Shown here in pieces: positions 31,313-49,273 of a DNA stretch of 64,000 nt. Source of the DNA: Candidatus Sulfotelmatobacter sp. (lineage in GTDB: Bacteria > Vulcanimicrobiota > Vulcanimicrobiia > Vulcanimicrobiales > Vulcanimicrobiaceae); the NCBI GenBank assembly GCA_035504415.1, contig DATJRY010000019.1, positions 1-64,000 of the forward strand, written 5' to 3'. The notes beneath the pieces are model-generated. The model was not told the origin of the DNA and did no database searches. It worked only from the letters and a program-made list of their open reading frames with translations. The first letter of the stretch is position 1; each line of letters begins with the position of its first letter. A program made the position numbers and the translations under genes.

Positions 31313-33970
31313 GTGCTGCAAGACTCTCGAGAGCGAGCTGACTCCGAGGGGACGCTCGCCTCCTTACGCGAGGAAATCACCGGGCCGGGCGGTCCCGGCC
31401 GCCGTGTGGACGACGAGCGGCTTGCGGCCTGGCTGCGCGAGGTCGCGCGGACGCGCGACTTCACCCGCGAGCCGCCCGCCGTCAGCTTCGCGATCGCCGA
31501 CCGGGCGGTGCTGCAGCGCTTCGTCGACGGCCTGCGCAACGAGCTGCTCGACTATCGCGAGATCGTCGACGCGGCCGGCGAGAGCATCGAGCGCAACGCG
31601 CGTCAGCTGGCCGGGATCGTCGCCTCGACCGGCGAGCAGACCGCGGTCGTCGAGCGAACCGCGGCGGCGATCGCCGAGATCGAGCAAGGTGCGACGCACG
31701 TCGCCGAGACCGCGCACGACCTGCGCGCGACCTCGGGAACCGTCGCGGCGTCGTCGCGCTCCTACGACGCAGGCATCGCGGGCGTGCTGGAGCGGCTGCA
31801 GGCGCTGGTGGGCGCGGTCGAGGCGACGGCGGGTTTCGCACAGACGACCGAACGCGGCCGCATCGGGATCCAGAGCTTCCTCGAGCGGTTGCGGCGCATC
31901 GCGCGCCAGGCACGCCTGCTCGGCATCAACGCCGCCATCGAGGCGGCGCACCTGGGCGAAGCGGGACGCGGGTTCGTCATCGTCGCCGACGAGGTGAAGC
32001 GGCTCTCGACCTCGACCGTCGAGTCGGCCAACGACGTCGCCGGGATCGAGAAGCAGCTGCACGACGCCGGCGATCGCGTCGACGGCGCCATCCGCGAGGC
32101 CGCCACGATCGTACGCGGCTTGGCCGACGCGCTCTCGAGCGCGCAGCACCGCTCGGCGGAGCGCGCCGATCAAGTCGGCGAGCTGGAACGCGCGATCGGC
32201 GAGGTCGCCGGGCTGGTCGGCGAGCAGAGCGGGGCGCTGACGCTGGTCAACGACAGCATACGCGGCATCGCCGAGCATGCGCACGAGGTCTCGGAGGCTG
32301 CGGAACGGGCGGCCGGGTTGGCGCTGAGCGACGGGCTCGCCAACCTGCGCGCCGCGTTGGCACGCACCAGCCTGGGAACGCGCACGCGTCACACCAACGG
32401 CGTCGTCGACCTCTCGCCGGTGCCGGGACCCGTGCGCCAGGCCGCCGCCGAACTGCGCGATCTGGTCGACGGCGACGAGCGCGAGCTGCTGACGTCGGTC
32501 GCGCGGATCGCCGTCGCGATCGCGCGCAACAGCTACGAGTGGCGCTCGATCGGCTCCGCGCTCGGTGCACTGGGCTGGCTACTCGACGGGACCGCGCATA
32601 CGATCGAGGACCTGGCCGCGGGTGCCGGCGCGGCCGCCGCCGCGACGCAGCGCATGCGTGACGCGATCGATGCGATCCGGGCCGGTTTCGGCACCGCGAT
32701 CCAAGAGCTGCAGGCCGCGCTCGACCGGGTCGCGCAGGTGCGCGACGCCGTGCAGCGCGCGGCGACGTCCGTCAGCGCGACCTCGGAAGCGGGTCAGCGC
32801 GCCGGCGCGATCCTCGATCTGATCGACGCGATCTCCAGCGAGACGACGCTGCTCTCGTTCAACGCCGCGATCGAGGCGGCGCACGCGGGCGAAGCCGGCA
32901 GCGGCTTCGGCGTCATCGCCGACGAGATCCGTGCGCTGGCGACCGGGACCTCGCACGCGGTCGGCGAGATCGGCGAGATGCTGGGCGCGCTGTTGTCGGC
33001 CGGCGAGTCGATGCGCGAGGCGACCGGCGAAGCGCTCGAGCGCACGGCCGAAGTCGAACGGCACGCGACCGCCGTGCAGGACGCCGTCGGCGCGCTGCGC
33101 GGCGAGCTGCAAGGAACGCTGGCGCGCGCCGCCGAGGTGGCCGCGATCGTCGAACAGCAGCTGGGCGCGCTGACCGACGTGCGCAGCGCCACCGCGATCG
33201 CGCGCGAGCGGGTCGAGAGCGAGACCGTCGCCGCCGCCGACGAGCAGCGGCTCGAGCTGGCGATGCTCGGGATGCGCGCGCACGCGCTGGCCGCGCGCCG
33301 TCCGCTCGGCACGGTCGCCGAGGCCGTGCGCGAGATCGCGCTGGCCGTCGCGAGCGACATGGACGAGGTGTTCGAGGACGCGATCCGCCGCGGCGCGATC
33401 CGGCTCGACGACTGCTTCGACACCGACTACGTCGAGCTGACCGGTGAGCGGATCCGGCACCTGGCGCGCTTGTTCGACGTCTCGCGCGTGCCGGCGAGCG
33501 GCTTCGACCCGCCCAAGTACGAGACACGCTACGACGCCGCGATCGAAGGCGGGATCAACGCGGCGATCGACGCCGCGGTGCCGACGCACCGCTCGATCGT
33601 GGCGATGTTCGGCGTCGACCTCAACGGCTTCTGTTTCGGGCACTACCGCGAGTGCCGCCAGGACTGGACCGGCGACCGCGCCACCGACCTCGCCGGCAAC
33701 CGCATCAAGCGCTTCTTCGACGATCCGTTGAGCCTGCGCTGTTCGCGCGTCGGTCTGGGCGGGGCGGCGCACAGCCTGCCGCGTCGCACCCCCTATGCGA
33801 CCTTCCGCGAGAACGGCTGCACCTTGGTGCGCGGCGGCTTGCGGCCGTGGGCGGTCTACACCTACGCGCGCGACACCGGGATCGTCTACAACGACGTCTG
33901 CGTGGGGATCTTCGCGCGCGACCAGCGCGTCGGCACGCTGCGCGTCATCTACGACGCCGACTCGGTCTAG
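31313..33970 (+). CDS. Soluble chemoreceptor with two MCP signalling modules
   Basis: An 885-residue methyl-accepting chemotaxis-type protein without signal peptide or membrane helices. Two separate hairpin tips are present: GINAAIEAAHLGEAGRGF (around residue 203) and SFNAAIEAAHAGEAGSGF (around residue 515), each followed by long coiled coil. The C-terminal 200 residues (RLDDCFDTDYVEL...NGFCFGHYRECRQDW) resemble the Cache-like C-terminal region of cytoplasmic receptors. The GTG start at 31313 has no strong ribosome site; GTG 31404 is an alternative. Its stop codon shares a CTAG with the convergent permease gene. Confidence 0.82.
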   Translation: MLQDSRERADSEGTLASLREEITGPGGPGRRVDDERLAAWLREVARTRDFTREPPAVSFAIADRAVLQRFVDGLRNELLDYREIVDAAGESIERNARQLAGIVASTGEQTAVVERTAAAIAEIEQGATHVAETAHDLRATSGTVAASSRSYDAGIAGVLERLQALVGAVEATAGFAQTTERGRIGIQSFLERLRRIARQARLLGINAAIEAAHLGEAGRGFVIVADEVKRLSTSTVESANDVAGIEKQLHDAGDRVDGAIREAATIVRGLADALSSAQHRSAERADQVGELERAIGEVAGLVGEQSGALTLVNDSIRGIAEHAHEVSEAAERAAGLALSDGLANLRAALARTSLGTRTRHTNGVVDLSPVPGPVRQAAAELRDLVDGDERELLTSVARIAVAIARNSYEWRSIGSALGALGWLLDGTAHTIEDLAAGAGAAAAATQRMRDAIDAIRAGFGTAIQELQAALDRVAQVRDAVQRAATSVSATSEAGQRAGAILDLIDAISSETTLLSFNAAIEAAHAGEAGSGFGVIADEIRALATGTSHAVGEIGEMLGALLSAGESMREATGEALERTAEVERHATAVQDAVGALRGELQGTLARAAEVAAIVEQQLGALTDVRSATAIARERVESETVAAADEQRLELAMLGMRAHALAARRPLGTVAEAVREIALAVASDMDEVFEDAIRRGAIRLDDCFDTDYVELTGERIRHLARLFDVSRVPASGFDPPKYETRYDAAIEGGINAAIDAAVPTHRSIVAMFGVDLNGFCFGHYRECRQDWTGDRATDLAGNRIKRFFDDPLSLRCSRVGLGGAAHSLPRRTPYATFRENGCTLVRGGLRPWAVYTYARDTGIVYNDVCVGIFARDQRVGTLRVIYDADSV

Positions 33971-34974
33971 CGATCGGCGCCGGGCAGCCGCAGCCGGTAA
34001 CCGACCGGCATCAGCTGCCAGCCGAAGCGGCCCGCCAGCGAACCCCACAGGCCGCGCGGGAAGAACAGCGAGAAGATCAGCGCCGAGCCGCCCAGGCCGA
34101 CCAGATACCACGCGCCGCTGCCGCCGAAGATCGTCTCGACCACGAAGAAGACGATCGCGCCGAGGATCGGTCCCTCGAACGTTCCCAGCCCCCCGACCAG
34201 CGTCATGAAGATCATGTACGCCGTCCACTGCACGCCGAAGTAGGTCTTCGGCTGGAAGGTGATCAGCGTCGCCAGCGTCAGCGAGCCGGCCGCCGCGCAG
34301 CCGACCGCGGCGAGCACGAAGATCAGCCGTTTGGTGGCGAAGACGCGCACGCCGACCGACGCCGCCGCTTCCTCGTCGTCGCGGATCGCTTGGATCGACG
34401 CGCCCAGCCGGCTGCGCAGCAGCCAGAACACCAGCCCGACGACGACGATCATCAACGCCAGACCGAGCCAGTAGTTGCAGGCGCGGCGCGTCTGCGGCGC
34501 CAGTGCCGAGATCGCGATCAGCGACGTGCCGGTCTCGCCGTTGATCAGGTTGTCGAGGTTGACCAGCAGGTGCCCGAGCTCGGCGAACACCCACATCCCG
34601 ATCGCGAACGCGCCGCCCCGCAGCCGCAGCGCGAACGACGAGAGCGGGAGCGAGACGAGCCCGACCAGGAGCGGCGCCAGCACCAGCGCCAGGTACACTT
34701 CGACGCCCGCGTGCGACAGCCGAATCGCCGCGTACGCGCCCAGCCCGAAGAACAGCTGCTGCCCGACCGAGACCAAGCCGCCGTAGCCGGCCAGCGCGTT
34801 CCACATCGCCGCCAGGATGATGTAGACGAACAGCGTGGTCAGCCGATCGGTCAGGTACTCGCCCAGGAACAACGGTCCGAAGGCCAGCACGACCAGCAGC
34901 CCGGCGACGCTGGCCATCCCGGCGATCGAGACCGCGCTCCAGCGCTGCACCGCGATCGGCGGCGCGCCGGTCAC
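33967..34974 (-). CDS. livM: Liv-type ABC permease LivM (cassette A)
   Basis: A 335-residue inner-membrane permease with about nine helices and the LivM signature region (WNALAGYGGLVSVGQQLFFGLGAYA) and the cytoplasmic loop RLGASIQAIRDDEEAAASVGV that meets the ATPases. GTG start overlaps the LivH stop. It is the last gene of cassette A (binding protein, LivG, LivF, LivH, LivM, read leftwards from 38646). Substrate is unlikely to be an ordinary amino acid given the aromatic-catabolism context. Confidence 0.92.
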   Translation of the reverse strand: MTGAPPIAVQRWSAVSIAGMASVAGLLVVLAFGPLFLGEYLTDRLTTLFVYIILAAMWNALAGYGGLVSVGQQLFFGLGAYAAIRLSHAGVEVYLALVLAPLLVGLVSLPLSSFALRLRGGAFAIGMWVFAELGHLLVNLDNLINGETGTSLIAISALAPQTRRACNYWLGLALMIVVVGLVFWLLRSRLGASIQAIRDDEEAAASVGVRVFATKRLIFVLAAVGCAAAGSLTLATLITFQPKTYFGVQWTAYMIFMTLVGGLGTFEGPILGAIVFFVVETIFGGSGAWYLVGLGGSALIFSLFFPRGLWGSLAGRFGWQLMPVGYRLRLPGADR

Positions 34975-35873
34975 GTCGTCCTCCGCACGGGCCGGACCAG
35001 CGCCCGCAGATCGCGGCCGCCCAGCGCGAAGCGTGCCGCCAGCACCAACAGGAACACGACGTGACCGCCGATCAGGAAGCCTTGCGGGTTGACCTGCGAG
35101 CCGACGTTCTGCGCGACGCCCAGCACGATGCCGCCCAGCAGCGTCCCCCACAGCGAGCCGGTTCCGCCGATCACGACCGCCTCGAAGGCGAAGATCAGCT
35201 GCGTCGCGCCCGCGTAGGGGTCGAACGAGCTGCGCAGCCCGAGGAACGCGCCCGCGATCGCGACCGTGACCAGCGCGATGGCCGACGCGCCGGCGTAGAC
35301 GGCGCGCGAGTCGACGCCCACCAGCTCGGCGGTGTCGGCGTCCTGCGCGGTCGCGCGGATCGCGCGCCCGAACGGCGTGCGGTGCAGGAACAGGTGCAAG
35401 CCGCCCAACAGCGCGACCGCGACGGCGAACGTGAGCAGCGCCAGCTCGCCGACCGACAAACCGCCGGCGGTCCAGCTGCTGTACGCGAGGTCGCCGACGT
35501 TCGGCGCCAGCGACCGCGTATCGGCGCCGTACCTCTCGAACAGCAGGTTGTCGATCACGATCGCGAGGCCGAAGGTGCTCAGCAGCGGCGTCAGCTCCCC
35601 GGCGCGCAGGGCGCGGTCGAGCACGCCGCGCTGCAAGAGCCAGCCCGCGATCGCCATGACCGGCACGATCGCCAACAGCGCCAGGAACGGCGAGAGGTTC
35701 CACTGCCCCGCGACCGTGAGCACCAAGAACGCCGCCAGCACCGCGATGCTGCCGTGGGCGAGATTGATGATGCGCATGACGCCGAACATGAACGAGAGCC
35801 CGCACGCCAGCAGCGCGTAGTAGCCGCCCAGCAGCACGCCTTGGACGATCTGGCCGATCCAGAACTGCGTCAC
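34971..35873 (-). CDS. livH: Liv-type ABC permease LivH (cassette A)
   Basis: A 300-residue permease with the LivH pattern: VQGVLLGGYYALLACGLSFM, MRIINLAHGSIAVLAAF, and the late FEAVVIGGTGSLWGTLLGGI segment. It forms the membrane channel together with LivM. Both ends overlap neighbours by four bases, so the cassette is translationally coupled. Confidence 0.92.
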   Translation of the reverse strand: MTQFWIGQIVQGVLLGGYYALLACGLSFMFGVMRIINLAHGSIAVLAAFLVLTVAGQWNLSPFLALLAIVPVMAIAGWLLQRGVLDRALRAGELTPLLSTFGLAIVIDNLLFERYGADTRSLAPNVGDLAYSSWTAGGLSVGELALLTFAVAVALLGGLHLFLHRTPFGRAIRATAQDADTAELVGVDSRAVYAGASAIALVTVAIAGAFLGLRSSFDPYAGATQLIFAFEAVVIGGTGSLWGTLLGGIVLGVAQNVGSQVNPQGFLIGGHVVFLLVLAARFALGGRDLRALVRPVRRTT

Positions 35874-36595
35874 GGTGCGCTCGCGCTTCCGGCGTGCCGC
35901 AAGCCGAAGTAGGCCTGCGTCACCTGCTCGCGCGTCATCGCCGCCGCCGCGCCTTCGAGCACGATGCGGCCTTCGAGCAGACAGATGATCCGCGTCGCGA
36001 CGCGCAGCGTGCGCGAGAGGTCCTGCTCGACGAGCACGATCGTGGTCCCGCTCGCGATGACCGTGCGCAGCGACTCGTAGACGCGGTCGACGGCGATCGG
36101 CGAGAGTCCCAGCGAGAGCTCGTCGATGAGCAGCAGGCGCGGGTTGGTCATCAGCGCGCGACCGATCGCGGTCGCCTGCTGCTCGCCCCCCGAGAGGCTC
36201 CCGCTGCGCTGCTCGAGGTGCGGGCGCAGCATCGGGAACGCGTCCAGCACGGTGTCCATGGTCCAGCGGCCGCGGCGCGCGTGCGCACCGGCGACTTGGA
36301 GGTTCTCGCGCACCGTCATCTCGCCGAACAGCTTGCGGCCCTCGGGGACGAGCGTGATCCCCGCGCGCACGCGGCGGTTGGCGCGCTCGCCGCGCAGATC
36401 GCGTCCGTCGAAGACGACGCGCCCGGCGGTCGGTTTGTGCGCGCCGGCGATCGCGCGCAAGAGGGTCGTCTTGCCGGCGCCGTTGGCGCCGACCAGCGCG
36501 AGGATCTCACCCTCGGCGACCGTGAACGAGATGCCGCGCACGGCCTGCAGCAGACCGTGGCGCACGTCGAGCGCTTCGACGGCGAGCAAGCTCAC
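35870..36595 (-). CDS. livF: Liv-type ABC ATPase LivF (cassette A)
   Basis: A 241-residue ATP-binding protein. Walker A is GANGAGKTT, the signature is LSGGEQQATAIGRALM, and Walker B is LLLIDELSLG. The LVPEGRKLF segment and short length mark the LivF type. Its GTG start overlaps the LivG stop (GTGA). Confidence 0.93.
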   Translation of the reverse strand: MSLLAVEALDVRHGLLQAVRGISFTVAEGEILALVGANGAGKTTLLRAIAGAHKPTAGRVVFDGRDLRGERANRRVRAGITLVPEGRKLFGEMTVRENLQVAGAHARRGRWTMDTVLDAFPMLRPHLEQRSGSLSGGEQQATAIGRALMTNPRLLLIDELSLGLSPIAVDRVYESLRTVIASGTTIVLVEQDLSRTLRVATRIICLLEGRIVLEGAAAAMTREQVTQAYFGLRHAGSASAP

Positions 36596-37329
36596 GTCAC
36601 ACCGCTGCCGAGGTACGCTTCGATGACGGCGGGATGTGCCAGCGCGACCTCGGGCGCGCCTTCGGCGATGACGCGTCCGGCGTCCATGCAGACGAGCCGC
36701 CCGACGACTTGCAGCAGCACGTGCAGCACGTGCTCGATCCACACGATCGCGATCTTGCGGCCGCGTAGCTCGCGCACGATCGCGACCAGCTCGCCGGCCT
36801 CCGCGTCGGTCAGGCCGCCGCCGATCTCGTCGAGCAGTAACACGTGGGGATCCGTGGCCAGCGCGCGAGCCAGCTCCAACCGTTTGCGGTCGAGCAGCCC
36901 CAGCGCTTCGGCGCGCCGGTTACCGAGCTCGAGCATGCCGCACAGCCGCAGCGCGTCGATGCAGGCGTCGTACGCGTTGGGCCTGCTGCGCCCGGCGCCC
37001 ATCGACGCGGCGACGAAGACGTTCTCGAAGACGGTCAGATGCCCGAACGGGCGCGGAACCTGGTGCGAGCGCGCGATGCCGAGCCGGCAGCGGCGCGCCG
37101 CGTCGAGCGCCGACACGGCGGCGCCCTCGAAGCGCACGCTGCCGGCGGACGGCGCGTACGTGCCCGCCAGCACGTTGAGCAGCGTCGTCTTGCCGGCACC
37201 GTTGGGCCCGACGATGCCGACCGCCTCATCTGCCGCCAGCGAGAAGTCGACCCCGTCGACCGCCGTGAACGCGCCGAAGCGCTTGGTCACGGCGGTGGCG
37301 ACGAGGACGGGCTCACCGGCCGGCTGCAC
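36592..37329 (-). CDS. livG: Liv-type ABC ATPase LivG (cassette A)
   Basis: A 245-residue ATP-binding protein with Walker A GPNGAGKTT, a Q-loop region typical of LivG (RSHQVPRPFGHLTVFENV), and Walker B LLLDEIGGGL. The usual LSGG signature is replaced by a GLLDRKRLELARAL stretch, as in the LivG proteins of cassettes B and C here. GTG start; the binding-protein gene ends 15 bp upstream. Confidence 0.92.
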   Translation of the reverse strand: MQPAGEPVLVATAVTKRFGAFTAVDGVDFSLAADEAVGIVGPNGAGKTTLLNVLAGTYAPSAGSVRFEGAAVSALDAARRCRLGIARSHQVPRPFGHLTVFENVFVAASMGAGRSRPNAYDACIDALRLCGMLELGNRRAEALGLLDRKRLELARALATDPHVLLLDEIGGGLTDAEAGELVAIVRELRGRKIAIVWIEHVLHVLLQVVGRLVCMDAGRVIAEGAPEVALAHPAVIEAYLGSGVT

Positions 37330-37344
37330 GAACAGAGAGGCCCG

Positions 37345-38646
37345 CTAACCGTTGTACGGCAGCAGTTTGGCCGTGATCGGGACGCGCGGGTCCCCGGCGT
37401 GCTCGGTGATCACCAAGTCGAACGGGTATTTGCTGCCCGGTTTCGACTTGACCCACTGATCGCCGATGATCAGCGTGGTCGCGACGTTGGGCACCGGGCC
37501 GTGGCCGAAATCGACTTTGCCGACGATGCTGGTCATCGCGACCGACCCGATCGCTTTGGCGACGGCGGCCTTGCTCTTCGGGTTGCCGCTCTTCTTGAGC
37601 GCTTCGAACCCGACGTCGAACAGCGAGAGCGACGCGCCCAGCTGCTGGTTCCACTGCCGGCCGGTGGCCTTCTCGTAGGCGTCGGCGAGCGCGCGCGAGC
37701 TGATGCCGCTGAAAGCCGACGAGAACGGGAAGTCGCGGTGCCAGTAGCAGCCGCTGGCGAGCTTGTCGCCGAGCGAGCCCAGCGCTTCGGTCGTGCCGGG
37801 GAACAGTCCGGTCTTGGCGATCTGGCAGATCTTCACCATCTTGGTGTAGCCCTGCTGTGCCGCTTGCCGCCAGAAGGTCGCGAAGTCGGGCGGGATCGGG
37901 AAGGTGTTGAAGATCTCGCACTGCTCGGCTTTGAAGCGCGCGATCTGCGAGGAGAAGTCGGTCGTTCCGTCCTCGTAGCCGCCCGGATCGATCACCGTGT
38001 AGCCGGCTTTTTCCAGATCGGGCTTGAGATGCTCGCGAATCGCGTTCCCGTCGGCGTCGTTCGGATACATCACCGCGACCTTCTTGTTGTTCGGGATCAG
38101 CTTCCATTGCGAGAGGTAACAGTCGAGAAATTGCTTGACGCCGAAGCTGAACAGATAGGTCCACTTGTACGGTGAGGGCGCGCCGGGCTTGGCGCCGCGG
38201 CCGAAGTACCACGCTTCCCAGGGCATGACCGTCGCCAGACACGGCACGCCCGCCGCTTCGCACGCGTCCGAGACCGGGTTGACGACTTCCGGTGTCGAGG
38301 TGACGAGCATGAAGTCGATTCCCTCGCGGGTGATCAGCTCGTTCGCGAGCTGACCGGCGCGGGCCGGATCGGACTGGCTGTCGCGATCGAGGATCTCGAC
38401 GGCGTACTGCTTGCCGGCGATGGTGACGCCTTTGGCGAGCGTCTTGCGCGCGTGCTCGAGAATGAACGGGTCACACTCGCCGAAGCTGCCCAGCGGGCCC
38501 GTGCGGGGGCTGATGAATCCGATCTTGAGCGTTTCGGCCGCACTCGCCGCCGACCACAGGACCGGCGCGGTGCCGGCCAACGCCGCGCCGCCGGCGGCCG
38601 CCCCGACGGCGCCGACGAACGCGCGCCGTGAACTCCGATGTGCCAT
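37345..38646 (-). CDS. Liv-type substrate-binding protein, Tat signal (cassette A)
   Basis: A 433-residue exported binding protein. The N-terminus SSRRAFVGAVGAAAGGAALA is a twin-arginine signal, so it is folded before export. The mature part is a type I binding fold (IGFISPRTGPLGSFGECDPF) and contains SQSDPARA, a variant of the SQSSPNRA motif shared by the binding proteins of cassettes B and C. First gene of cassette A, with two palindromes in its upstream region (38660-38700). Confidence 0.9.
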   Translation of the reverse strand: MAHRSSRRAFVGAVGAAAGGAALAGTAPVLWSAASAAETLKIGFISPRTGPLGSFGECDPFILEHARKTLAKGVTIAGKQYAVEILDRDSQSDPARAGQLANELITREGIDFMLVTSTPEVVNPVSDACEAAGVPCLATVMPWEAWYFGRGAKPGAPSPYKWTYLFSFGVKQFLDCYLSQWKLIPNNKKVAVMYPNDADGNAIREHLKPDLEKAGYTVIDPGGYEDGTTDFSSQIARFKAEQCEIFNTFPIPPDFATFWRQAAQQGYTKMVKICQIAKTGLFPGTTEALGSLGDKLASGCYWHRDFPFSSAFSGISSRALADAYEKATGRQWNQQLGASLSLFDVGFEALKKSGNPKSKAAVAKAIGSVAMTSIVGKVDFGHGPVPNVATTLIIGDQWVKSKPGSKYPFDLVITEHAGDPRVPITAKLLPYNG

Positions 38647-38760: not shown

Positions 38761-39567
38761 TCAGCCGCGGGTCTGGATTGCAGCTTCGATGCCCGCGCGG
38801 GTCGCGCGCATCGCCGGGAGCACGCGCGCCAGCATGTCGTCGACGCTCGCGCGAGCTCCGGGGATGCAGACGGTCATCGCCGCCGTCGTTCGTCCGCGCG
38901 TGTCGCGCAGCGGGATCGCGAGCGAACGCAGTCCCACCTCGAGCTCACCGTCGACGAGCGCGTAGTCGTCGGTGCGCGCCCGCTCCACGATCGCGCGCAG
39001 CGCCTGCGGATCGGTGACGGTGTGCTCGGTATACGACGGAAACCGCGCGCCGGCGAAGTAGCGCGCCAGCTCGGGCTCCGAGAGCCCGGCCAGCAGCACG
39101 CGGCCCATCGCGCAGGCGCTGGCCGGCAGCCGCCGGCCGACGCCGAAGTTGACGTTCATGATGCGCCCGGTCGGGACGCGCAGCACGCAGACGATGTCCT
39201 CGCCGTCCAGGACGCTGGCCGTGCACGTCTCACCCAGTTGCGCGACGAGTTGTTCGACCCAGGGCTGGGCCGCGTCCCAGACGTCGAGCGAGGCCAGGTA
39301 GGAGAAGCCCAGCTCGAGGATCTTGGGCGTCGGCCGGAAGCGGCGTTCGTCGAGGACGACGTAGCCCAGGCTCTCGAGCGTCAGCAGGAGGCGGCGCGCG
39401 CCGGCCCGCGTCAGGCCGGTGCTGACCGCGACCTCGGAGAGGGAGAGCGCCCGGCGCGCGGTCCCGAAGGCGCGGATGACGGCCAGGCCCTTCGCCAATG
39501 ACTGGACGTAGTCGGATGCGGGGACCGCCGGGGCGGCCTCTCCCTGCGACGAGCGCGCCTTGTACAT
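38761..39567 (-). CDS. IclR-family regulator (PcaR/PobR-like)
   Basis: A 268-residue regulator with an N-terminal helix-turn-helix (residues about 20-80, LSLSEVAVSTGLTRAGARRLLLTLESLGYV) and an IclR effector domain (VGRRLPASACAMGRVLLAGL). The N-terminal 'YVQSLAKGLAVIRAFG' is typical of the PcaR/PcaU/PobR group that senses protocatechuate-pathway acids. It is divergent from the MCP-DctP gene and upstream of cassette A, which suggests control of the hydroquinone cluster, consistent with IclR-type palindromes at 41508-41522. Confidence 0.9.
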   Translation of the reverse strand: MYKARSSQGEAAPAVPASDYVQSLAKGLAVIRAFGTARRALSLSEVAVSTGLTRAGARRLLLTLESLGYVVLDERRFRPTPKILELGFSYLASLDVWDAAQPWVEQLVAQLGETCTASVLDGEDIVCVLRVPTGRIMNVNFGVGRRLPASACAMGRVLLAGLSEPELARYFAGARFPSYTEHTVTDPQALRAIVERARTDDYALVDGELEVGLRSLAIPLRDTRGRTTAAMTVCIPGARASVDDMLARVLPAMRATRAGIEAAIQTRG

Positions 39568-39683: not shown

Positions 39684-41453
39684 GTGGACGACGTCACTGG
39701 AAAACTGCAGGACGCGGCTGCGCGCCTGCGCCAGACGTCGGGCCGCATCGCCGAGAACGCGCTGATCCAAGCTGTCTCGGTCCAGCAGATCGCCGACGTC
39801 GCCGCCGATTCGGCGCACGACCTCGCCGTCGCGCTGTCCGACGTGCGCGCCGCGTCCAACCAGGCCCGCGAGGCCGAACAACGCGTCAGCGCGACCGGCG
39901 CCGAGATCGACCAACTCGTGCGCGCCGTCGAGACGCTCGCCGGCGCGGCGCGCGCCAGCGGCTCGACGATGACCGATTTCCTCGCCTCGCTCGAGCGAAT
40001 CGACGAGATCGTCGACTTCGTGCACGAGGTCTCCGAACGCACCAACCTGCTCTCGCTCAACGCTGCGATCGAAGCGGCGCGCGCCGGCGAGCACGGCCGC
40101 GGTTTCGCCGTCGTCGCCGCCGAGATCCGTAAGCTGGCCGACTCGACCCGCACCGCGACGGCCGAGATGGAGAAGCTGCTGGGCGCGGTCCGCAGCGGCG
40201 GCGAGAAGACCGCGCAGATCGCCGCCTCGTCGGACGCCTCGGTGCGCCAAGGCGAGTCCGCCGCGGCCGGTGCCCGCGACGCGCTGGTCGCGATCTCGTC
40301 GGCGGTCGGCTCGACCGCGTCCGCGTTCGACGCCGTCGAACGCTCGATCGAAGCCGAAGCCAGCCGCTCCGAAGAGTTCGGCCGCAACGCCGCGCAGCTG
40401 CTGCGCACGACCCGTTCCCACTACGCCGACGCGGTCGAGTCGAACCTGGCCGTCAACGCCATCGACTACCACGTCACCGAGATGCAGGCCGCGGGCAGCA
40501 CGCCGCAGTTGAGCCCGGCGCGCGTGCTGTGCGCGCTGGCCGGCACCTCGGTCGCCGGCCGCGGCACCGACGAGCTGGCGCGGCGTCTCGCCGCCGACAT
40601 CCCGGAGCTCGGCTTCGCCAACGTCCCGCCGCAAGGCCGCAGCGAGTTCGACGTGCTGCAGGCCGTGCGGCGCGGCGACGCCGTCGTCGGCGTGGTCAGC
40701 GTCGCAATCCTGGGCAACTTGGTGCCGGCGATCCAGCTGATCGAGGCGCCGTACTTGGTCGAAGACCGCGCCCATGCGCACGCGCTGCTGAGCGGCCCGT
40801 ACGGTGCGCAGACGCTGGCCTCGATCACACCCTACGGACTGGTCGGACTGGGGTTCTTCGAGACCGGCTTCAAGCACGTCACCAACGTCGTGCGCCCGAT
40901 TCGCATGCCCGCGGACATCGAGCGCCTGCGCTTGCGCGTCATGGAGGCGCCGGTACACGTCGCGATCGCCGACGCCTGGCAGGCGATGGTGCGGCCGGTG
41001 GCGACCAACAACATCCTGGACGCGTTGCGGCGCGGCGAGCTCGACGGGCAAGCCAGCAACTCGCTGCCGATGAACGTGGCCACCAAGATCTACGAAGCGC
41101 AGCGCTATCTGACGCTGACCGCGCACTCCTACGCGACGCAGGTGATCGTCGCGAACGCCGACTGGCTGCGCGCCGCCGGCGAGCACCGCGCGCGGATCGA
41201 GGCCACCGTCGCCGCCGTCATGAGCTGGCAGAGCGAGGACGCCGCGCGTGCCGAACGCGCGGCCTTCGCCGAATTGGAGAAGCGGCTCGAAATCATTCGG
41301 CTGAACGACGCCGAGCATCGCGCGTTCGTCGCCTCCACGCAGTCCGCGTACGGCGTCCTCGAACGGCTGGTCGGCAAGGAGCCGATCGCGCAGATCCGTC
41401 GCGCCGCCGATCAAGCCCGGCCGGAGAAACGCAGCACCGCGCGCGCGTCCTGA
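39684..41453 (+). CDS. Chemoreceptor signalling domain fused to a DctP-type binding domain
   Basis: A 589-residue protein with no signal peptide or membrane helix. Residues about 1-255 are an MCP signalling coiled coil with the hairpin tip [20 protein letters not shown] (around 122-141). Residues about 265-545 match TRAP-transporter DctP solute-binding proteins: FVNVP-like EL, then [31 protein letters not shown], and [11 protein letters not shown]. DctP proteins normally work in the periplasm; here the domain would be in the cytoplasm, reporting an internal carboxylate to the chemotaxis machinery. GTG start with GAGGAAG upstream. It lies 82 bp before the hydroquinone dioxygenase genes. Confidence 0.82.
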
Positions 41454-41535: not shown

Positions 41536-42048
41536 ATGGTCGAGACCGCTTCCCGTCTCCACACCGTATTCGGTTCGCTCGGCGACTACCAGAAGGGTAG
41601 CGTCGAGCTCGTGTCCGGCAGCGTCAAAGAATACGCGTTCTCCAACGTCTTCGACGTCGCGGCCAAAGCGAAGCCGTACGAGAAGATCGTCGTCGGCAAG
41701 AACTTGGAGTACGTCATCGAGGCCGTGCGCGCCGAGGGCACCTCGCCGTGGTACGCCTGCGCGCACGACGAGTTCGTGATCGTGATGGACGGGAAGATGC
41801 AGATCGACTTCGTCAAGCTCGACGACCCCGCGTCGGCCGCGCCGGAGAACACCGAGGGGACCGTGCTCGTCGCCGGCGAGCCGAAAGGCGAGAAGATGGG
41901 ACTCGTGCGCGTAGCGCGCGGCCATCAGGCGTTGCTGCCCGCCGGCGCCGCGTATCGTTTCAGCGCCGCCGAGCCCGCGGTCTTCCTGCAACAGACGATT
42001 CTCGGCCCGCTCTCGCAAGAGCGCTGGGGCGAGATCTGCCTGCGCTAG
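41536..42048 (+). CDS. hapC: Hydroquinone 1,2-dioxygenase small subunit
   Basis: A 170-residue cupin-like protein (about 18 kDa). By size, order and partners it fits the small subunit of the two-component Fe(II) hydroquinone dioxygenase (HapC/PnpC type), which opens hydroquinone to 4-hydroxymuconic semialdehyde. The HDEFVIVMDGKMQIDF segment is a cupin strand with a metal-like HxE pattern, and GHQALLPAGAAYRF is the second cupin motif. ATG after AAAGGAG. Identification leans on gene context as much as on sequence; a different ring-cleaving cupin is possible. Confidence 0.7.
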   Translation: MVETASRLHTVFGSLGDYQKGSVELVSGSVKEYAFSNVFDVAAKAKPYEKIVVGKNLEYVIEAVRAEGTSPWYACAHDEFVIVMDGKMQIDFVKLDDPASAAPENTEGTVLVAGEPKGEKMGLVRVARGHQALLPAGAAYRFSAAEPAVFLQQTILGPLSQERWGEICLR

Positions 42049-42072: not shown

Positions 42073-43101
42073 ATGGCTAGTCTCGAAGAAGCCGTTCCGA
42101 CCGCGCTGCCCGAGCTCGTCGACGCGTCGGCGCCCGACGCCGTGACCGGCTACCGCACCTTCACGCTGGGCGGCTTCCGCTTCTCGCGTGACGGATATTT
42201 CGCGACCATCACCTGGCCGGTCGGCGAGAGCGGCAAACGCCAATCGCACACGATGGCCGTCGACTATTTCTTGCGCGCGCTGATGCGCGACGTCGCCTGG
42301 GGCTTCTTCTACGGCTGGGTCAACTTCGACCACGTCTTCGGGACGAAGAACCAGTACGGCACGGTGCAGGTCTACGGCGGGCGCTACAACGAGGCGTTGC
42401 ACAAGGCCGGCGTCTCGTACGTCGAGACGTTCGAGTCGCCGGTCGCGATGGCGACCTTCAAGGCGATGCTCAGCGACTGGACCAACGCCGGCTGGGATCC
42501 GTTCGCCGCGCCGGAAGAGACGGGCAAGACGGTGTTCGGCCCGAAGAACGGCGACAACGACGCCGCCATCAACCGCGACCGCGTCGTGTCGCGCCGTATG
42601 GTCAGCCTGCCGGGCGACTCGGTGCTGCGCACCGATGCGACGCATCCGATCAACCGGCACTTCGCCGACGTGCCGCAAGACGAGCCCGACGTCGTCTGCG
42701 AGCCGGGCTTCGAGGGCGAGCTGGCCGCGTACAACTTGTTCGCGTACCTCTCACGCTCCGACGTGACCTGGAACCCGTCGGTCGTCAGCGTCTGCAAGCA
42801 GAGCTTGGCGTGCCCGACGACCGAAGAGTTCATCCTGCCCGTCAAGCACGGCAACGACCGCATCGAGTGGTTCATCCAGTTCTCGGACCACATCGTCTGG
42901 GACGTCGAGGACAAAGAGACGGGCCGACCACGCGCGCGGGTGACGATGCGCGCGGGCGACGTCGCCGCGATGCCGGCCGACATCCGTCATCAAGGTTACT
43001 CGCCGAAGCGCTCGATGCTCTTCGTGTGGGAGAACGCGACGCCGGGTCTGCCCGAACGCTACGAGGCGGGCGAGCTTCCCCCGTACCCGGCCGAGTTCTG
43101 A
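42073..43101 (+). CDS. hapD: Hydroquinone 1,2-dioxygenase large subunit
   Basis: A 342-residue protein (about 38 kDa), matching the large, iron-binding subunit size of HapD/PnpD hydroquinone dioxygenases. Visible features are YFLRALMRDVAWGFFYGW near residue 60-80, FDHVFGTKNQYGTV, a C-terminal cupin-like part with IEWFIQFSDHIVWDVEDKE, and MPADIRHQGY, which may hold metal ligands. It starts 24 bp after the small subunit and is followed after 7 bp by an aldehyde dehydrogenase, as in known hydroquinone clusters. Confidence 0.75.
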   Translation: MASLEEAVPTALPELVDASAPDAVTGYRTFTLGGFRFSRDGYFATITWPVGESGKRQSHTMAVDYFLRALMRDVAWGFFYGWVNFDHVFGTKNQYGTVQVYGGRYNEALHKAGVSYVETFESPVAMATFKAMLSDWTNAGWDPFAAPEETGKTVFGPKNGDNDAAINRDRVVSRRMVSLPGDSVLRTDATHPINRHFADVPQDEPDVVCEPGFEGELAAYNLFAYLSRSDVTWNPSVVSVCKQSLACPTTEEFILPVKHGNDRIEWFIQFSDHIVWDVEDKETGRPRARVTMRAGDVAAMPADIRHQGYSPKRSMLFVWENATPGLPERYEAGELPPYPAEF

Positions 43102-43108: not shown

Positions 43109-44608
43109 GTGGCGCAGGTGAACGGCGCGGCGACGCTCGCCGCGCCGCGCACCGGGCTGTTCATCGGCAACCGGTTCGTCGACGCGCTCGACGGCCGCCG
43201 GCTGCCGGTGATCAATCCGCACGACGGCACGACGCTGGCCCAGATCGCGCTCGCCGGCGCCGTCGACGTCGACCGCGCGGTGCTGGCGGCGCAAGCGGCG
43301 TTTCCGTCGTGGAGCCGGCTGGCCGCGGCCGACCGCGGCCGGCTGCTGCTCAAGCTCGCCGACGCGATCGAAGCCAACGCCGAAGAGCTGGCGCAGTTGG
43401 AGTCGCGCGACACCGGCCACCCGATTCGCGACACGCGCCGGCTCGACGTGCCGCGCACCGCGGCGTGCTATCGCTACTTCGGCGGGATGGCCGACAAGTT
43501 CGAAGGCACCGTCGTGCCCGTCGAGGCCGGTTTCCTCAACTACGTCACGCACGAAGCGATCGGTGTCGTCGGGCAAATCTGCCCGTGGAACTTCCCGATC
43601 ATGTTCACCAGCTGGAAGATGGGTCCGGCGCTGGCGGCCGGCAACACCGTCGTCCTCAAACCCTCGGAGCTCACGCCGCTCTCGACCCTGCGGCTGGCCG
43701 AGCTGGCCGCGGAGGTCGGCTTTCCCGACGGCGTGATCAACGTGGTGCCGGGCTTGGGCGAAGAAGCCGGACAGCGGCTCGTCGATCATCCCGACGTGCG
43801 TAAGATCTCGTTCACCGGCTCGACCGCCGTCGGCCGGCGGGTGATGGAAGGTGCGTCGCGCACCCTCAAGCGGGTCGGCCTCGAGCTGGGCGGCAAAGGC
43901 GCGAACGTCGTCTTCGCCGACGCCGATCTGGACGCCGCGATCGGCGGCTCCGCGTTCGCGATCTTCCACAACCAGGGGCAAGCGTGCATCGCCGGCTCGC
44001 GGCTGATCCTGCACGAAGCGGTCGCCGACGAGTTCCTGGCGCGCTTCGGCGCGCTTGCGGCATCGATCCGCCTCGGCGATCCGCTCGACGAGCGGACCGA
44101 GATGGGACCGCTGACCTCGGCGGTCCACCGCGACCGCGTGATGAGCTACGTCACGGTCGCGCTCGACGAGGGCGGCACGATCTTGCAGGGCGGCAAGGCG
44201 CCTGACGATCCGGCCTTGGCCGCCGGCTACTACGTCGAGCCGACCATCGTCGCGGCGCCGCTCGGCTCGCGCGTGACCTGCGAGGAAGTGTTCGGTCCGT
44301 TCGTCAGCGTCGCGCGCTTCCGCACCGACGAGGAAGCGCTGGCACTCGCCAACGCGACCGAGTACGGATTGGGCAGCGGTCTGTGGACGCGCGACCTGGC
44401 GCGCGCGCACCGCTTCGGCCGCGACATCCGCTCGGGGATGGTGTGGATCAACGCCTACAAGCGCGTCAATCCCGGCTCGCCGTTCGGCGGCGTCGGCGCG
44501 TCGGGCCAAGGCCGCGAGATGGGTTTCGAGGCGATGCGGCAGTACACCGAGCCGAAGTCGGTGTGGGTCAACGTCGATGCGCGGATCCCACCCTTCTATC
44601 CTCGCTGA
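43109..44608 (+). CDS. hapE: Aldehyde dehydrogenase, probable 4-hydroxymuconic semialdehyde dehydrogenase
   Basis: A 499-residue NAD(P)-dependent aldehyde dehydrogenase. Catalytic elements are complete: PWNFPIMF and KPSELTPLS for cofactor, FTGSTAVG, LELGGKGANVVF with the general-base Glu, and the nucleophile Cys in NQGQACIAGSR. Placed directly after a hydroquinone dioxygenase and before maleylacetate reductase, it most likely oxidises 4-hydroxymuconic semialdehyde to maleylacetate. GTG start at 43109. The 3' end overlaps the next gene by 32 bp. Confidence 0.82.
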   Translation: MAQVNGAATLAAPRTGLFIGNRFVDALDGRRLPVINPHDGTTLAQIALAGAVDVDRAVLAAQAAFPSWSRLAAADRGRLLLKLADAIEANAEELAQLESRDTGHPIRDTRRLDVPRTAACYRYFGGMADKFEGTVVPVEAGFLNYVTHEAIGVVGQICPWNFPIMFTSWKMGPALAAGNTVVLKPSELTPLSTLRLAELAAEVGFPDGVINVVPGLGEEAGQRLVDHPDVRKISFTGSTAVGRRVMEGASRTLKRVGLELGGKGANVVFADADLDAAIGGSAFAIFHNQGQACIAGSRLILHEAVADEFLARFGALAASIRLGDPLDERTEMGPLTSAVHRDRVMSYVTVALDEGGTILQGGKAPDDPALAAGYYVEPTIVAAPLGSRVTCEEVFGPFVSVARFRTDEEALALANATEYGLGSGLWTRDLARAHRFGRDIRSGMVWINAYKRVNPGSPFGGVGASGQGREMGFEAMRQYTEPKSVWVNVDARIPPFYPR

Positions 44609-45683
44609 CGCCGCCGCGCTGGTGCGCGGCTTCGTCTACGAAGGGACGCCGACGCGCGTGGTCTTCGCGGCCGGTGCGTCGGCGCAGCTGGCCGAGGAGC
44701 TCGATCGCGCCGGCTTGCGCGCGGTACTGCTGGTCGCCGGCGACGAGCAGTACGCGCGGCTGGGCGACGTCGCCGCCGCGCTCGGTGCACGGGTCGGCGG
44801 GACGTTCAACGAGGTGCGCGAGCACGTGCCGGTCGCGCTCGCCGCGCGCGCGCGTCGCTTCGCGGCCGAGATCGGCGCCGACGGGATCGTCGCGCTGGGC
44901 GGGGGCTCGGCGATCGGCCTGGCGAAAGCGGTCGCGCTCACCAGCGGCCTGCCGATCGTGGCGGTGCCGACCACCTATGCCGGCTCGGAGATGACCCCGA
45001 TCTACGGGCTGACCGAAGACGGCCGCAAGACGACCGGCCGCGATCCGCGCGTGCGCCCGCAGGTCGTCGTGTACGATCCGCTGCTGACGCGCACGCTCTC
45101 GCCGGAGCTTTCCGCCGCCAGCGGCCTGAACGCGCTGGCGCACGCGGTCGAAGCGCTGTACGCGATCGACGCGAATCCGGTCGTCTCGCTGATCGCCGAG
45201 GAGAGCATTCGCGCGCTGGCGGCCGGGCTGCCCCGCGTCGTCGAGGGGCCGGACGACGTCGACGCGCGCGCGCAGTGCCTGTACGGTGCGTGGCTGGCCG
45301 GCATCGCGCTCGGCTCGGTCTCGATGGCGCTGCACCACAAGCTCTGCCACACGCTCGGCGGGACGTGGGATCTTCCGCATGCGCGCACGCACGCGGTCGT
45401 GCTGCCGCACGCGGCAGCCTACAACGCACCGGCCGCGCCGACCGCGATGGCGCGCGTCGCGCGCGCGCTCGGCGTCGACGACGCGCCGCGCGGGCTCGCC
45501 GATCTCGCGCGCCGGCTGGGTGTGCCGGGAACGCTGCGCGAGCTCGGTTTTCCGTCGGCCGCGCTCGATCGCGCCGCCGACCTGGCCGCGGCTTCACCCT
45601 ACCCCAATCCGCGCCCGATCGAGCGCGACGCGATCCGCGCGCTGTTGGCGCGCGCGTTCGACGGCGAGCTCGCGCGGGCGTGA
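44577..45683 (+). CDS. hapF: Maleylacetate reductase
   Basis: A 368-residue iron-containing alcohol dehydrogenase family enzyme that reduces maleylacetate to 3-oxoadipate with NAD(P)H. The family's GFVYEGTPTRVVFAAG opening, ALGGGSAIGLAKA nucleotide loop, YAGSEMTPIYG and the metal-site block ALHHKLCHTLGGTWDLPHAR are all typical of maleylacetate reductases. ATG 44577 overlaps the dehydrogenase; GTG 44622 would remove 15 leading residues and is also plausible. It joins the hydroquinone branch and the hydroxyquinol branch encoded at 50313. Confidence 0.9.
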   Translation: MRGSHPSILADAAALVRGFVYEGTPTRVVFAAGASAQLAEELDRAGLRAVLLVAGDEQYARLGDVAAALGARVGGTFNEVREHVPVALAARARRFAAEIGADGIVALGGGSAIGLAKAVALTSGLPIVAVPTTYAGSEMTPIYGLTEDGRKTTGRDPRVRPQVVVYDPLLTRTLSPELSAASGLNALAHAVEALYAIDANPVVSLIAEESIRALAAGLPRVVEGPDDVDARAQCLYGAWLAGIALGSVSMALHHKLCHTLGGTWDLPHARTHAVVLPHAAAYNAPAAPTAMARVARALGVDDAPRGLADLARRLGVPGTLRELGFPSAALDRAADLAAASPYPNPRPIERDAIRALLARAFDGELARA

Positions 45684-45711: not shown

Positions 45712-46989
45712 ATGGGAAGCTCGTACGACCTGACCCGCCGCCGCATGCTCGGCATCACGGCCGCGGGCGCCGCCGCCGCGACGCTCGGCGTCCGCGCGCC
45801 GGCCCGCGCCGCACGCACGATCACGCTCGGCTTCGTTTCACCGCAGACGGGACCGCTCGCCGCGTTCGGCGAGGCCGACAGCTACGTGCTCTCGGCGCTG
45901 CGCAAGCGGCTCGCCGACGGCATCACGATCGGCGGCACGAAGTATCCCATCGCGGTCGTCGTCAAGGACAGCCAGTCCTCGCCGAACCGCGCCGGTGAGG
46001 TGGCCTCGGAGCTGATCTTACAGAACAAGGTCGATCTGATGCTCGTCTCCTCGACGCCGGAGACGACGAATCCGGTCGCCGACCAGTGCGAGCTCAACGC
46101 CGTGCCGTGCATCTCGACGGTGACGCCCTGGCAAGCGTGGTTCTTCCCGCGCCACGGCGATCCGGCCAAGGGCTTCGAGTGGACGTACCACTTCTTCTGG
46201 GGACTCGAGGACGTCGAGTCGGTGTTCCTCGGGATGTGGAATCAGGTCAGCACCAACAAGCTCGCCGGCGGTCTGTTCCCCAACGACGGCGACGGCAACG
46301 CGTGGGCCGACCCCGTGCACGGCATGCCGCCGGTGCTGGCGAAGGACGGCTACAAGCTGAACGACCCCGGCCACTATCAAGACCTGACCGCCGACTGCTC
46401 GGCGCAGATCAGCGCGTTCAAGAAGGGCGATTGCGAGGTGCTCACCGGCGTGCCGCTGCCGCCGGACTTCAAGAACTTCTGGACGCAGGCGCACCAGCAA
46501 GGCTATCGCCCCAAGATCGCGTCGATCGGCAAGGCGCTGCTGTTTCCGAGCTCGATCGAGGCGCTCGGTCCGATCGGCAACGGGCTGACCAGCGAAGTCT
46601 GGTGGACGCCGGCGCATCCGTTCCACTCCTCGCTGACCGGTCAGAGCGCCGGGCAGTTGGCGGCGGCGTACAGCGCCGCGACCGGCAAGCAGTGGACGCA
46701 GCCGCTGGGCTTCTCGCACGCGCTCTTCGAGGTCGCGGTGCACGTGCTCTCGCACGCGTCCGACGTCAACAAGAAGGAAGCGATCCGCGACGCGTTGGCG
46801 ACGGCCAGCGTGGATACGGTGGTCGGTCCGGTGCGGTGGGGCAAAGGACCGGTCAAGAACGTCGCCAAGACGCTGCTCGTCGGCGGCCAGTGGGAGCACG
46901 GGAAGAAATACCCCTACGAGCTGGTCATCGTCGAGAACGCGCTGGCAAAGGAGATTCCGCTGCAAGGGAAGGTCAAGCCGCTCGCATGA
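45712..46989 (+). CDS. Liv-type substrate-binding protein, Tat signal (cassette B)
   Basis: A 425-residue binding protein with a twin-arginine signal (LTRRRMLGITAAGAAAA) and a type I periplasmic fold (LGFVSPQTGPLAAFGEADSY). It shares GGTKYP and DSQSSPNRA with the cassette C binding protein and is clearly its paralogue. ATG after GGAAGGAGG. It lies 28 bp downstream of maleylacetate reductase, so cassette B is probably cotranscribed with the hydroquinone genes and imports their aromatic substrate. Confidence 0.9.
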   Translation: MGSSYDLTRRRMLGITAAGAAAATLGVRAPARAARTITLGFVSPQTGPLAAFGEADSYVLSALRKRLADGITIGGTKYPIAVVVKDSQSSPNRAGEVASELILQNKVDLMLVSSTPETTNPVADQCELNAVPCISTVTPWQAWFFPRHGDPAKGFEWTYHFFWGLEDVESVFLGMWNQVSTNKLAGGLFPNDGDGNAWADPVHGMPPVLAKDGYKLNDPGHYQDLTADCSAQISAFKKGDCEVLTGVPLPPDFKNFWTQAHQQGYRPKIASIGKALLFPSSIEALGPIGNGLTSEVWWTPAHPFHSSLTGQSAGQLAAAYSAATGKQWTQPLGFSHALFEVAVHVLSHASDVNKKEAIRDALATASVDTVVGPVRWGKGPVKNVAKTLLVGGQWEHGKKYPYELVIVENALAKEIPLQGKVKPLA

Positions 46990-47708
46990 CGGCGCTCGTC
47001 GAGGCGCGCAGTCTCGCCAAACGGTTCGGCGCACTGCGCGTCGTCGACGACGTCTCCCTCACCGTCGCACCCGGCGAGGCGCTCGGGATCATCGGCCCCA
47101 ACGGCGCCGGGAAGACGACCCTGTTCAACCTGCTCGGTGGCGACTACGCCACCGATGCGGGCACCATTGCGTTCCAGGAACGCGACGTCACGCGGCTGGC
47201 GCCGGCGGAACGCGCCCGTTTGGGCATCGGGCGGACCTACCAGATCGCCGACCCGTTCGTCAAGCTGACGGTGTTCGAGAACGCGCTGGTCGCCGGCACG
47301 TTCGGCGCGCGGCGCGGCACGCGCGACGCCGAGGCGCTGGCCGTCGAGGCGTTGCGCCGTACGCACCTGCTTGCCAAGGCAAACCGGCCGGCGGGATCGC
47401 TGCCGCTGCTCGACCGCAAGCGCCTGGAGGTCGCGCGCGCGCTCGCCACCGACCCGGCACTGCTCTTGCTCGACGAGATCGCCGGTGGACTGACCGAGGC
47501 CGAGGCGCACGAGGTGGTCGCGCTGGTGCAGGAGGTCGTCGCCGCCGGCGTCGCGATCGTGTGGATCGAGCACGTCGTGCACGCGCTCTTCGCGGTCGCG
47601 ACGCGGCTGATCGTCATGGCCGACGGCAAGGTGTTCGCCGAAGGCGAACCGCGCGCCGTGCTCGACCGCCCCAACGTGCGCAGCTTGTACCTGGGGATCG
47701 AGGCGTGA
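46986..47708 (+). CDS. livG: Liv-type ABC ATPase LivG (cassette B)
   Basis: A 240-residue ATPase with Walker A GPNGAGKTT and Walker B LLLDEIAGGL. The region GIGRTYQIADPFVKLTVFEN is LivG-like; as in cassettes A and C, the signature helix reads LLDRKRLEVARAL instead of LSGG. Start overlaps the binding-protein stop (ATGA). Confidence 0.92.
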   Translation: MTALVEARSLAKRFGALRVVDDVSLTVAPGEALGIIGPNGAGKTTLFNLLGGDYATDAGTIAFQERDVTRLAPAERARLGIGRTYQIADPFVKLTVFENALVAGTFGARRGTRDAEALAVEALRRTHLLAKANRPAGSLPLLDRKRLEVARALATDPALLLLDEIAGGLTEAEAHEVVALVQEVVAAGVAIVWIEHVVHALFAVATRLIVMADGKVFAEGEPRAVLDRPNVRSLYLGIEA

Positions 47709-48400
47709 TGCTCGACGTGCGCGGGCTGTCCGCGTTCTACGGCGACTTCCAAGCGCTCTTCGACGTCGACCTCTCCGTCGACGCGGGGGAGCGGATCGCG
47801 CTGGTCGGCGCCAACGGCGCGGGCAAGTCGACGCTGCTGCGCAGCATCGCCGGCACGCTGCGCTCGCGCCCCGACGCGATCGTCTTCGACGGCGCGCCGA
47901 TCGGCGAGCTGCCGGCATCGAAGGTCGCGCGGCTGGGAATCGCGCTCGTCCCCGAAGGACGGCGGCTGTTCCCCAGCCTCACGGTCGAGGAGAACCTGCG
48001 CGCCGGCGGGCTCGGCGATCGCACCGGCGCTTGGAACCTCGAGCGCGTCTACGCGCTCTTTCCGATCCTGCGCGAGAAGCGCAACGCGCCCGCGACCTCG
48101 CTCTCGGGCGGCCAGCAGCAGATGTGCGCGATCGGACGGGCGCTGATGGCCAATCCGCGCCTGCTGCTGTGCGACGAGATCTCGCTGGGCTTGGCGCCGG
48201 CGGTCGTCAAGCAGGTCTACGCCGCGCTCGACGAGGTGTGCGCGGGCGGTCTGGCGGTGGTGCTGGTCGAGCAGGACGTCGAGTTGGCGCGCTCGCGAAC
48301 GGAGCGCGTGGTGTGCCTGCTGCACGGACGCGTGACCCTGACCGGGCGCTCGTGCGAGCTGGAGCGCGAGACGATCTCGCGCGCGTACTTCGGAGTCTGA
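47708..48400 (+). CDS. livF: Liv-type ABC ATPase LivF (cassette B)
   Basis: A 230-residue ATPase with Walker A GANGAGKST, signature LSGGQQQMCAIGRALM, Walker B LLLCDEISLG, and the LivF-typical LVPEGRRLFPSLTVEEN. ATG 47708 overlaps the LivG stop by one base; GTG 47705 is an equal alternative. Confidence 0.93.
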   Translation: MLDVRGLSAFYGDFQALFDVDLSVDAGERIALVGANGAGKSTLLRSIAGTLRSRPDAIVFDGAPIGELPASKVARLGIALVPEGRRLFPSLTVEENLRAGGLGDRTGAWNLERVYALFPILREKRNAPATSLSGGQQQMCAIGRALMANPRLLLCDEISLGLAPAVVKQVYAALDEVCAGGLAVVLVEQDVELARSRTERVVCLLHGRVTLTGRSCELERETISRAYFGV

Positions 48401-48403
48401 GGC

Positions 48404-49273
48404 GTGGGCTGGATCGACACGATCATCCAAGGGATCCTGCTCGGCGGCCTGTTCGCGCTCTTCGCGCTCGGCCTGGCCGTGATCTACGGCGTGATGAAGC
48501 TGATCAACATCGCGCACGGCGACTTCATCGTGCTGGGCGCGTACGTCGCGCTGGGCATCTCCGGCGCGACCGGCCGCAGCCCGTTCGTCGTGCTGCCCAT
48601 CGTCGTCGTGATCTTCATGCTGTTCGGCTACGTCTTGCAGCGCACGATCCTCAACTACACGCTCGGGCGCGACATCCTCATCCCGTTGGTGGTCACCTAC
48701 GGCATCTCGGTCGTGATCCAAAACTTGCTCCTGCAAGTCACCTCGGCCGACTCACGTTCCCTCAAGGTCGGCGGCATCGAAACCGCCAGCATCGCGCTGC
48801 CGGGTGGACTCGCGATCGGGTGGCTCCCGCTGCTCACGCTCGCCACGGCGCTGGCGGCGACGATCTTCTTGGAGTGGCTGTTCAACCACACGCGCCTGGG
48901 GATCGCGTTCCGTGCCGCCTCGGACGATCGCGAGACGGCCAACCTGATGGGCGTCAACGACTTGCGGCTGTACGCCTACGCGACCGCGATCGCGCTCGGG
49001 GTCGTCGCGCTGGCGAGCTTGTTCATGGGGATCAAGTTCGAGTTCACACCGGATCTAGGCTCGAGCTTCCTCCTGTACGCCTTCGAAGCGGTCGTGATCG
49101 GCGGTCTGGGGTCGTTCTGGGGGACGTTCTTGGGCGGCATCGTGCTCGGCGTCGCGCAGGCGATCGGCTTTGCGATCAACCCCGGCTGGGGGATCTTGCT
49201 GGGCCACTTGGTGTTCCTCGCGGTGTTGGTGCTGCGGCCGAACGGCCTGGTCCCGCGGAGCGCGGCCGCGTGA
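48404..49273 (+). CDS. livH: Liv-type ABC permease LivH (cassette B)
   Basis: A 289-residue permease with eight or nine membrane helices and the LivH blocks MKLINIAHGDFIVLGAYVAL and FEAVVIGGLGSFWGTFLGG. GTG start three bases after livF; the stop overlaps livM. Confidence 0.93.
   Translation: MGWIDTIIQGILLGGLFALFALGLAVIYGVMKLINIAHGDFIVLGAYVALGISGATGRSPFVVLPIVVVIFMLFGYVLQRTILNYTLGRDILIPLVVTYGISVVIQNLLLQVTSADSRSLKVGGIETASIALPGGLAIGWLPLLTLATALAATIFLEWLFNHTRLGIAFRAASDDRETANLMGVNDLRLYAYATAIALGVVALASLFMGIKFEFTPDLGSSFLLYAFEAVVIGGLGSFWGTFLGGIVLGVAQAIGFAINPGWGILLGHLVFLAVLVLRPNGLVPRSAAA

Follow-up and report, generated by a model that had tools for sequence, protein, structure and literature searches.

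A 64,000-nucleotide stretch of DNA from Candidatus Sulfotelmatobacter sp. (family Vulcanimicrobiaceae; contig DATJRY010000019.1 of assembly GCA_035504415.1, positions 1 to 64,000), here called the window, encodes a protein in which a signalling hairpin of the methyl-accepting chemotaxis protein (MCP) type is fused to a DctP domain, the solute-binding protein of tripartite ATP-independent periplasmic (TRAP) transporters. We consider it likely that this protein acts as a soluble chemoreceptor located entirely in the cytoplasm, where it senses an internal small carboxylate through its C-terminal TRAP-type DctP domain and steers the flagella. On balance, we also favour a broader proposal, in which Eremiobacterota made the periplasmic DctP protein into a general cytoplasmic sensor that lost its export, acquired both MCP and MarR outputs, outlived the TRAP transporter in many genera and reports internal carboxylate to the flagellar motor.

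A chemotaxis hairpin fused to a complete DctP fold

Pfam found MCPsignal (PF00015; residues 59-239, E 1.8e-29) in the window receptor as well as DctP (PF03480; residues 322-556, E 1.1e-43), with scores well beyond the curated thresholds in both cases, and NCBIfam concurred. The original prediction, made from the sequence alone, had placed both domains in one protein at positions 39684-41453, and it was right on the domains and on the coordinates. In the AlphaFold model, a long two-helix hairpin is followed by a short linker (residues about 270-279) and then by a complete DctP fold, whose two lobes (residues about 276-578) extend beyond the hidden Markov model match. The DctP block was predicted with pLDDT mostly 86-98 (whole-model mean 81.3, pTM 0.62). 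Model residues 276-577 superimposed on the structure 4xeq with a VIA-align Z of 37.8 and a root mean square deviation of 2.0 over 298 residues, and Foldseek matched the domain to entire TRAP binding proteins in the PDB with a target TM of up to 0.9. The structural check suggested in the original prediction, for a ligand cleft and a conserved arginine, thus returned an intact predicted two-lobe fold in which the arginine (R418) is kept.

We found no signal peptide, transmembrane segment or N-terminal hydrophobic segment in the window receptor, in agreement with the original prediction. An in-frame TAA seven codons 5' of the GTG start closes the reading frame, so no N-terminal signal peptide or membrane helix has been missed, and a gene-start error is ruled out. 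The hydrophobicity maximum of the protein, at residues 335-353, falls in the core of the DctP fold, in an element that its homologues also have. A chimeric assembly was also rejected as the origin of the fusion, as the same architecture occurs in about 20 other genomes.

A family of fused DctP domains

We searched 98 related genomes, counting the window's own among the carriers. Full-length proteins of the form MCP-DctP or MCP-DctP-MCP were found in 20 of them, and one further copy was cut by a contig end. The genome of the window itself also encodes an MCP-DctP-MCP protein of 900 amino acids and a MarR-DctP protein of 476 amino acids. The MCP-DctP form was found in the window's genus, with the contig-cut copy coming from a second family of the same order; the MCP-DctP-MCP form was spread over many genera of the family, more than ten. 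Matches with the fusion architecture in a collection scan came from records named Candidatus Eremiobacterota, the phylum to which the window's genome belongs, or from bacterial metagenome-assembled genomes. Among 72,556 plasmid records searched by tblastn, 4,673 had a match and none had a single place covering 80% of the query; the architecture is absent there, no wider search beyond the phylum having been possible.

All 23 fused DctP domains included in a tree and the contig-cut copy fell into one clade (support 100/98), separate from the exported DctP proteins of the same phylum; the fused domains thus share a common ancestry. The window receptor sits on a long branch in this tree. The MCP-DctP-MCP gene lies among housekeeping genes, and the other MCP-DctP genes have differing neighbours. 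The MCP-DctP-MCP proteins are about 880-900 amino acids long (L002, at G000:C15:20458-22116; L048-L065, L067, L104 and L107), and in several genera their loci show conserved synteny with amidase, MurI-like, DXS, SecG, Opp-type ATP-binding cassette (ABC) transporter and topoisomerase I genes.

Predicted cytoplasmic location and loss of the transport role

The window's DctP domain lacks both marks of a TRAP transporter, the export signal and a cognate DctM permease: no DctM gene was found beside the receptor, and the single one in the genome is on another contig (C17). In the same genome, five ordinary DctP proteins carry leader peptides, whereas the three fusions do not. The DctP proteins from outside Eremiobacterota that were retrieved with complete N termini all had leader peptides, and none had an MCP tip. 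In many ordinary DctP binding proteins of the phylum (L132-L144 and L149), the leader contains an RR or SR motif and resembles a Tat signal.

MarR-DctP proteins were found in four genomes (G000, G001, G005 and G047). Because MarR is a DNA-binding domain, the DctP domain attached to it must be cytoplasmic, and the protein would be a transcription factor that senses through a TRAP binding-protein domain. In 14 genomes, the sole DctP domain was that of the MCP-DctP-MCP gene; a DctM permease match was absent from 13 of these and marginal in one. The domain has therefore outlived its transporter. These two lines give strong independent support to the cytoplasmic DctP of the original prediction, and a putative role of the fused domains in cytoplasmic sensing is well supported. 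The MarR-DctP genes adjoin a gene for a LIV-type ABC transporter binding protein, with hydantoinase-like genes close by; in one case (L003/L044, G000:C11:363598-364380), the 476-residue protein, a MarR-type winged helix plus DctP, is encoded beside a LIV-type ABC transporter operon.

Chemotaxis and flagellar genes

Consistent with the original prediction of a flagellar system to signal to, the same genome holds a chemotaxis and flagellar gene set. CheA, CheW, CheC, FliP, FliR, FlhB and FlhA are encoded together on contig C3, where CheA adjoins CheW, and FliG, CheR and CheB are on this contig too; FliP, FliR, FlhB, FlhA, CheC and CheA were named by inspection of their sequences. Beyond the window's genus, 14 of the order's 15 fusion carriers had FliG, compared with 17 of 39 others (Fisher p 0.0015). 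It was lacking in one carrier within the genus and in the contig-cut carrier, both of which are incomplete assemblies. No FliG was found in G005, a member of the window's genus assembled as one contig of 3.5 Mb.

Table 1. Features of the receptor gene and its neighbours (window positions; residue numbers refer to the receptor)
Feature	Position	Strand	Basis and remarks
Divergent IclR-family regulator	38764..39567	-	PF09339 + PF01614; likely regulates the receptor/hydroquinone operon (inferred)
MCP-DctP fusion chemoreceptor	39684..41453	+	589 amino acids, GTG start, intact; PF00015 + PF03480, AlphaFold model, upstream in-frame TAA
MCP signalling hairpin	39687..40490	+	Residues 2-269; antiparallel helices 2-133 and 135-269; AlphaFold secondary structure, PF00015
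Conserved MCP hairpin tip	residues about 118-152	+	Part of the hairpin 39687..40490
DctP (TRAP solute-binding protein) domain	40509..41417	+	Residues about 276-578; VIA-align to 4xeq, PF03480
K397, in place of supporting Arg152 of 4P47	40872..40874	+	Arg in the 23 other aligned sequences
R418, carboxylate salt-bridge residue	40935..40937	+	Arg173 of 4P47; invariant in 24/24 aligned sequences
T441, replaces aromatic lid (position 196 of 4P47)	41004..41006	+	Alignment mapping
Q456-A457-S458-N459	41049..41060	+	One-residue insertion in the QEN motif bearing the ligand-binding Asn (213 of 4P47)
Putative hydroquinone dioxygenase small subunit, PnpC-like	41536..42048	+	No Pfam match; 82 bp downstream of the receptor
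Hydroquinone 1,2-dioxygenase large subunit, PnpD	42073..43101	+	PF18191, E 1.3e-62
Aldehyde dehydrogenase, probable hydroxymuconic semialdehyde dehydrogenase	43109..44608	+	PF00171; role inferred from position
Iron-containing alcohol dehydrogenase family protein, probable maleylacetate reductase	44577..45683	+	PF00465 + PF25137; role inferred from position

The ligand pocket

The closest solved relatives of the window's DctP domain were 4p9k, 4nq8, 4pdh and 4p47. Crystal structures in this group contain pantoate, erythronate or sugar acids, which for the most part had co-purified with the protein (PMC11668362). DctP is thus not a dicarboxylate-only family, and the original prediction, which had taken dicarboxylates as its ligand class, does not fit the nearest structures. 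In 4P47, Arg173 forms a salt bridge, Arg152 and Asn213 give support, position 196 is an aromatic lid and position 76 is acidic (PMC11668362). At the pocket positions of the pantoate/erythronate group, all 13 aligned MCP-DctP-MCP sequences have the canonical Glu, Arg, Arg, Phe and Asn. In the window receptor, the acidic residue corresponds to E321 by alignment column only, and Asn213 pairs with N459 or S458, varying by alignment. With the second arginine replaced by lysine and the aromatic lid by threonine, the ligand of the window protein cannot be inferred from its family.

A proposed cytoplasmic sensor and its alternatives

In the mechanism that we propose, a TRAP-type DctP domain without its former export signal would have been recruited to a signalling lineage, in which it follows an MCP hairpin at the C terminus. 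An intracellular small carboxylate, either an imported substrate or a pathway intermediate, would bind between the lobes of DctP, held by R418. Closure of the lobes may then be transmitted through the linker to the hairpin and its tip, where the change would alter the activity of CheA in a cytoplasmic or mixed array and, through it, flagellar rotation as the behaviour controlled. Several results weigh against this picture. The pocket of the window copy has diverged (K397, T441 and the insertion near N459), and binding may be altered or lost. A second AlphaFold model, of an MCP-DctP-MCP protein, had low confidence in its DctP part, probably owing to a shallow alignment. A simple, coarse pattern for consensus MCP methylation sites gave no matches in the window receptor, and CheR and CheB are encoded in the genome. 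Lastly, the Fisher test on the distribution of FliG ignores shared ancestry.

The original prediction suggested that the receptor may bind maleylacetate or 3-oxoadipate and so report how much hydroquinone is being broken down, a reading that we regard as improbable. The receptor gene does lie 82 bp ahead of the genes for PnpC, PnpD, the aldehyde dehydrogenase and the iron-containing alcohol dehydrogenase and in the same direction, with the IclR gene divergent on its other side, so that co-expression is plausible and co-transcription with the pnp genes likewise (a promoter scan of the receptor region gave no match, but such a scan is uninformative for this phylum), and a carboxylate could be held by R418. 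However, only three of the 98 genomes had PnpD, the window's being the sole fusion carrier among them; the remaining two pnp operons of the family lack the receptor yet keep the same dehydrogenase and binding-protein genes. The closest solved relatives, moreover, bind hydroxy or sugar acids rather than C6 dicarboxylates (PMC11668362), and the pocket is substituted. The survey of architecture and neighbours that the original prediction had called for gave a divided result: the fusion recurs, and its hydroquinone neighbourhood is unique to the window's genome. A conserved link between the receptor and hydroquinone genes was accordingly rejected; the link is local to the window's lineage, where it may still be functional.

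A ligand nearer to those of the solved relatives is also conceivable, although we think it rather unlikely: the fused DctP domains would sense pantoate, erythronate or another hydroxy or sugar acid in the cytoplasm, and the MCP-DctP-MCP proteins would report a core metabolite. The canonical pocket of those proteins, the top PDB matches from the pantoate/erythronate group and the position of the MCP-DctP-MCP gene beside housekeeping genes instead of a catabolic operon all favour this, but the aromatic lid and one arginine are missing from the window copy, and a ligand is rarely fixed by pocket similarity. We give little credence to the idea that the window's DctP domain has given up ligand binding for a structural or protein-binding role. 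The several pocket substitutions and the long tree branch would suit such a role; the confidently predicted complete fold, the retention of R418 and E321 and the canonical pockets of the paralogues speak against it.

Side observations bear on the hydroquinone neighbourhood. The PnpC-like product (41536..42048) shares 63-70% identity with the product of the gene preceding PnpD in two relatives. Two LIV-type ABC importer sets, at 34974-38646 (-) and 45712-49270 (+), bracket the receptor and the hydroquinone genes; conserved counterparts of the second set's binding protein occur within the G024 and G038 pnp operons. G038 also has, about 3 kb from its pnp operon and divergent from it, a gene (L150, G038:C199, 6939-7976) for a different, 346-residue MCP-like protein, possibly another receptor near hydroquinone genes.

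Comparison with known systems

Neither soluble chemoreceptors that sense through a C-terminal domain nor receptors with a pair of signalling domains are new. TlpD of Helicobacter pylori is a cytoplasmic chemoreceptor whose C-terminal sensor is a CZB domain. Like TlpD, the window protein has a soluble MCP hairpin, no membrane helices and an input domain at its C-terminal end, but this input is a 300-residue TRAP solute-binding fold rather than a CZB, PAS, globin or PilZ domain. Binding-protein folds are also reused as cytoplasmic sensors in LacI- and LysR-type regulators. The MarR-DctP paralogues are a direct parallel; LacI and LysR regulators use other binding-protein families and output domains, and the window receptor has a chemotaxis output. 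The TRAP binding proteins of the pantoate/erythronate group (4P9K, 4PAK, 4NQ8, 4PDH, 4PDD, 4XEQ and 4P47) have the same complete fold (Z about 35-38) and the same carboxylate arginine as the window domain, which differs from them in being cytoplasmic and fused to a signalling domain, in having no TRAP permease partner and in its pocket substitutions.

In the literature searched, which left subscription journals mostly uncovered, no account of a chemoreceptor containing a DctP domain was found, and novelty is thus unproven. A DctP input also goes unmentioned in the main text of a survey that covered 82,277 receptors (PMC8547431). DctP is apparently an undescribed class of input domain for cytoplasmic chemoreceptors. 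Few chemoreceptor input domains are known for internal sensing, and an intracellular TRAP binding-protein sensor, if true, would extend this set by a class for which ligand chemistry and closing motion are already known at the atomic level, so that the control of swimming by a metabolite would be directly measurable. That part of a transporter has become a sensor is shown by the MarR fusions and by the genomes that lack a TRAP permease; such a change is seldom seen with so many related forms extant.

DosM of Vibrio cholerae is a double signalling-domain receptor in which a hairpin at each end scaffolds a membrane-free, two-layer array (PMC7534058). The paralogous MCP-DctP-MCP proteins also bear one signalling hairpin at each end; they differ from DosM in that DctP lies between the hairpins, and the window protein has a single hairpin. 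A soluble protein of 885 amino acids with two PF00015 stretches is encoded at 31313-33967 (+), 5.7 kb from the MCP-DctP gene; its C-terminal region of ~230 residues has no Pfam match, and the protein is a DosM-like candidate scaffold.
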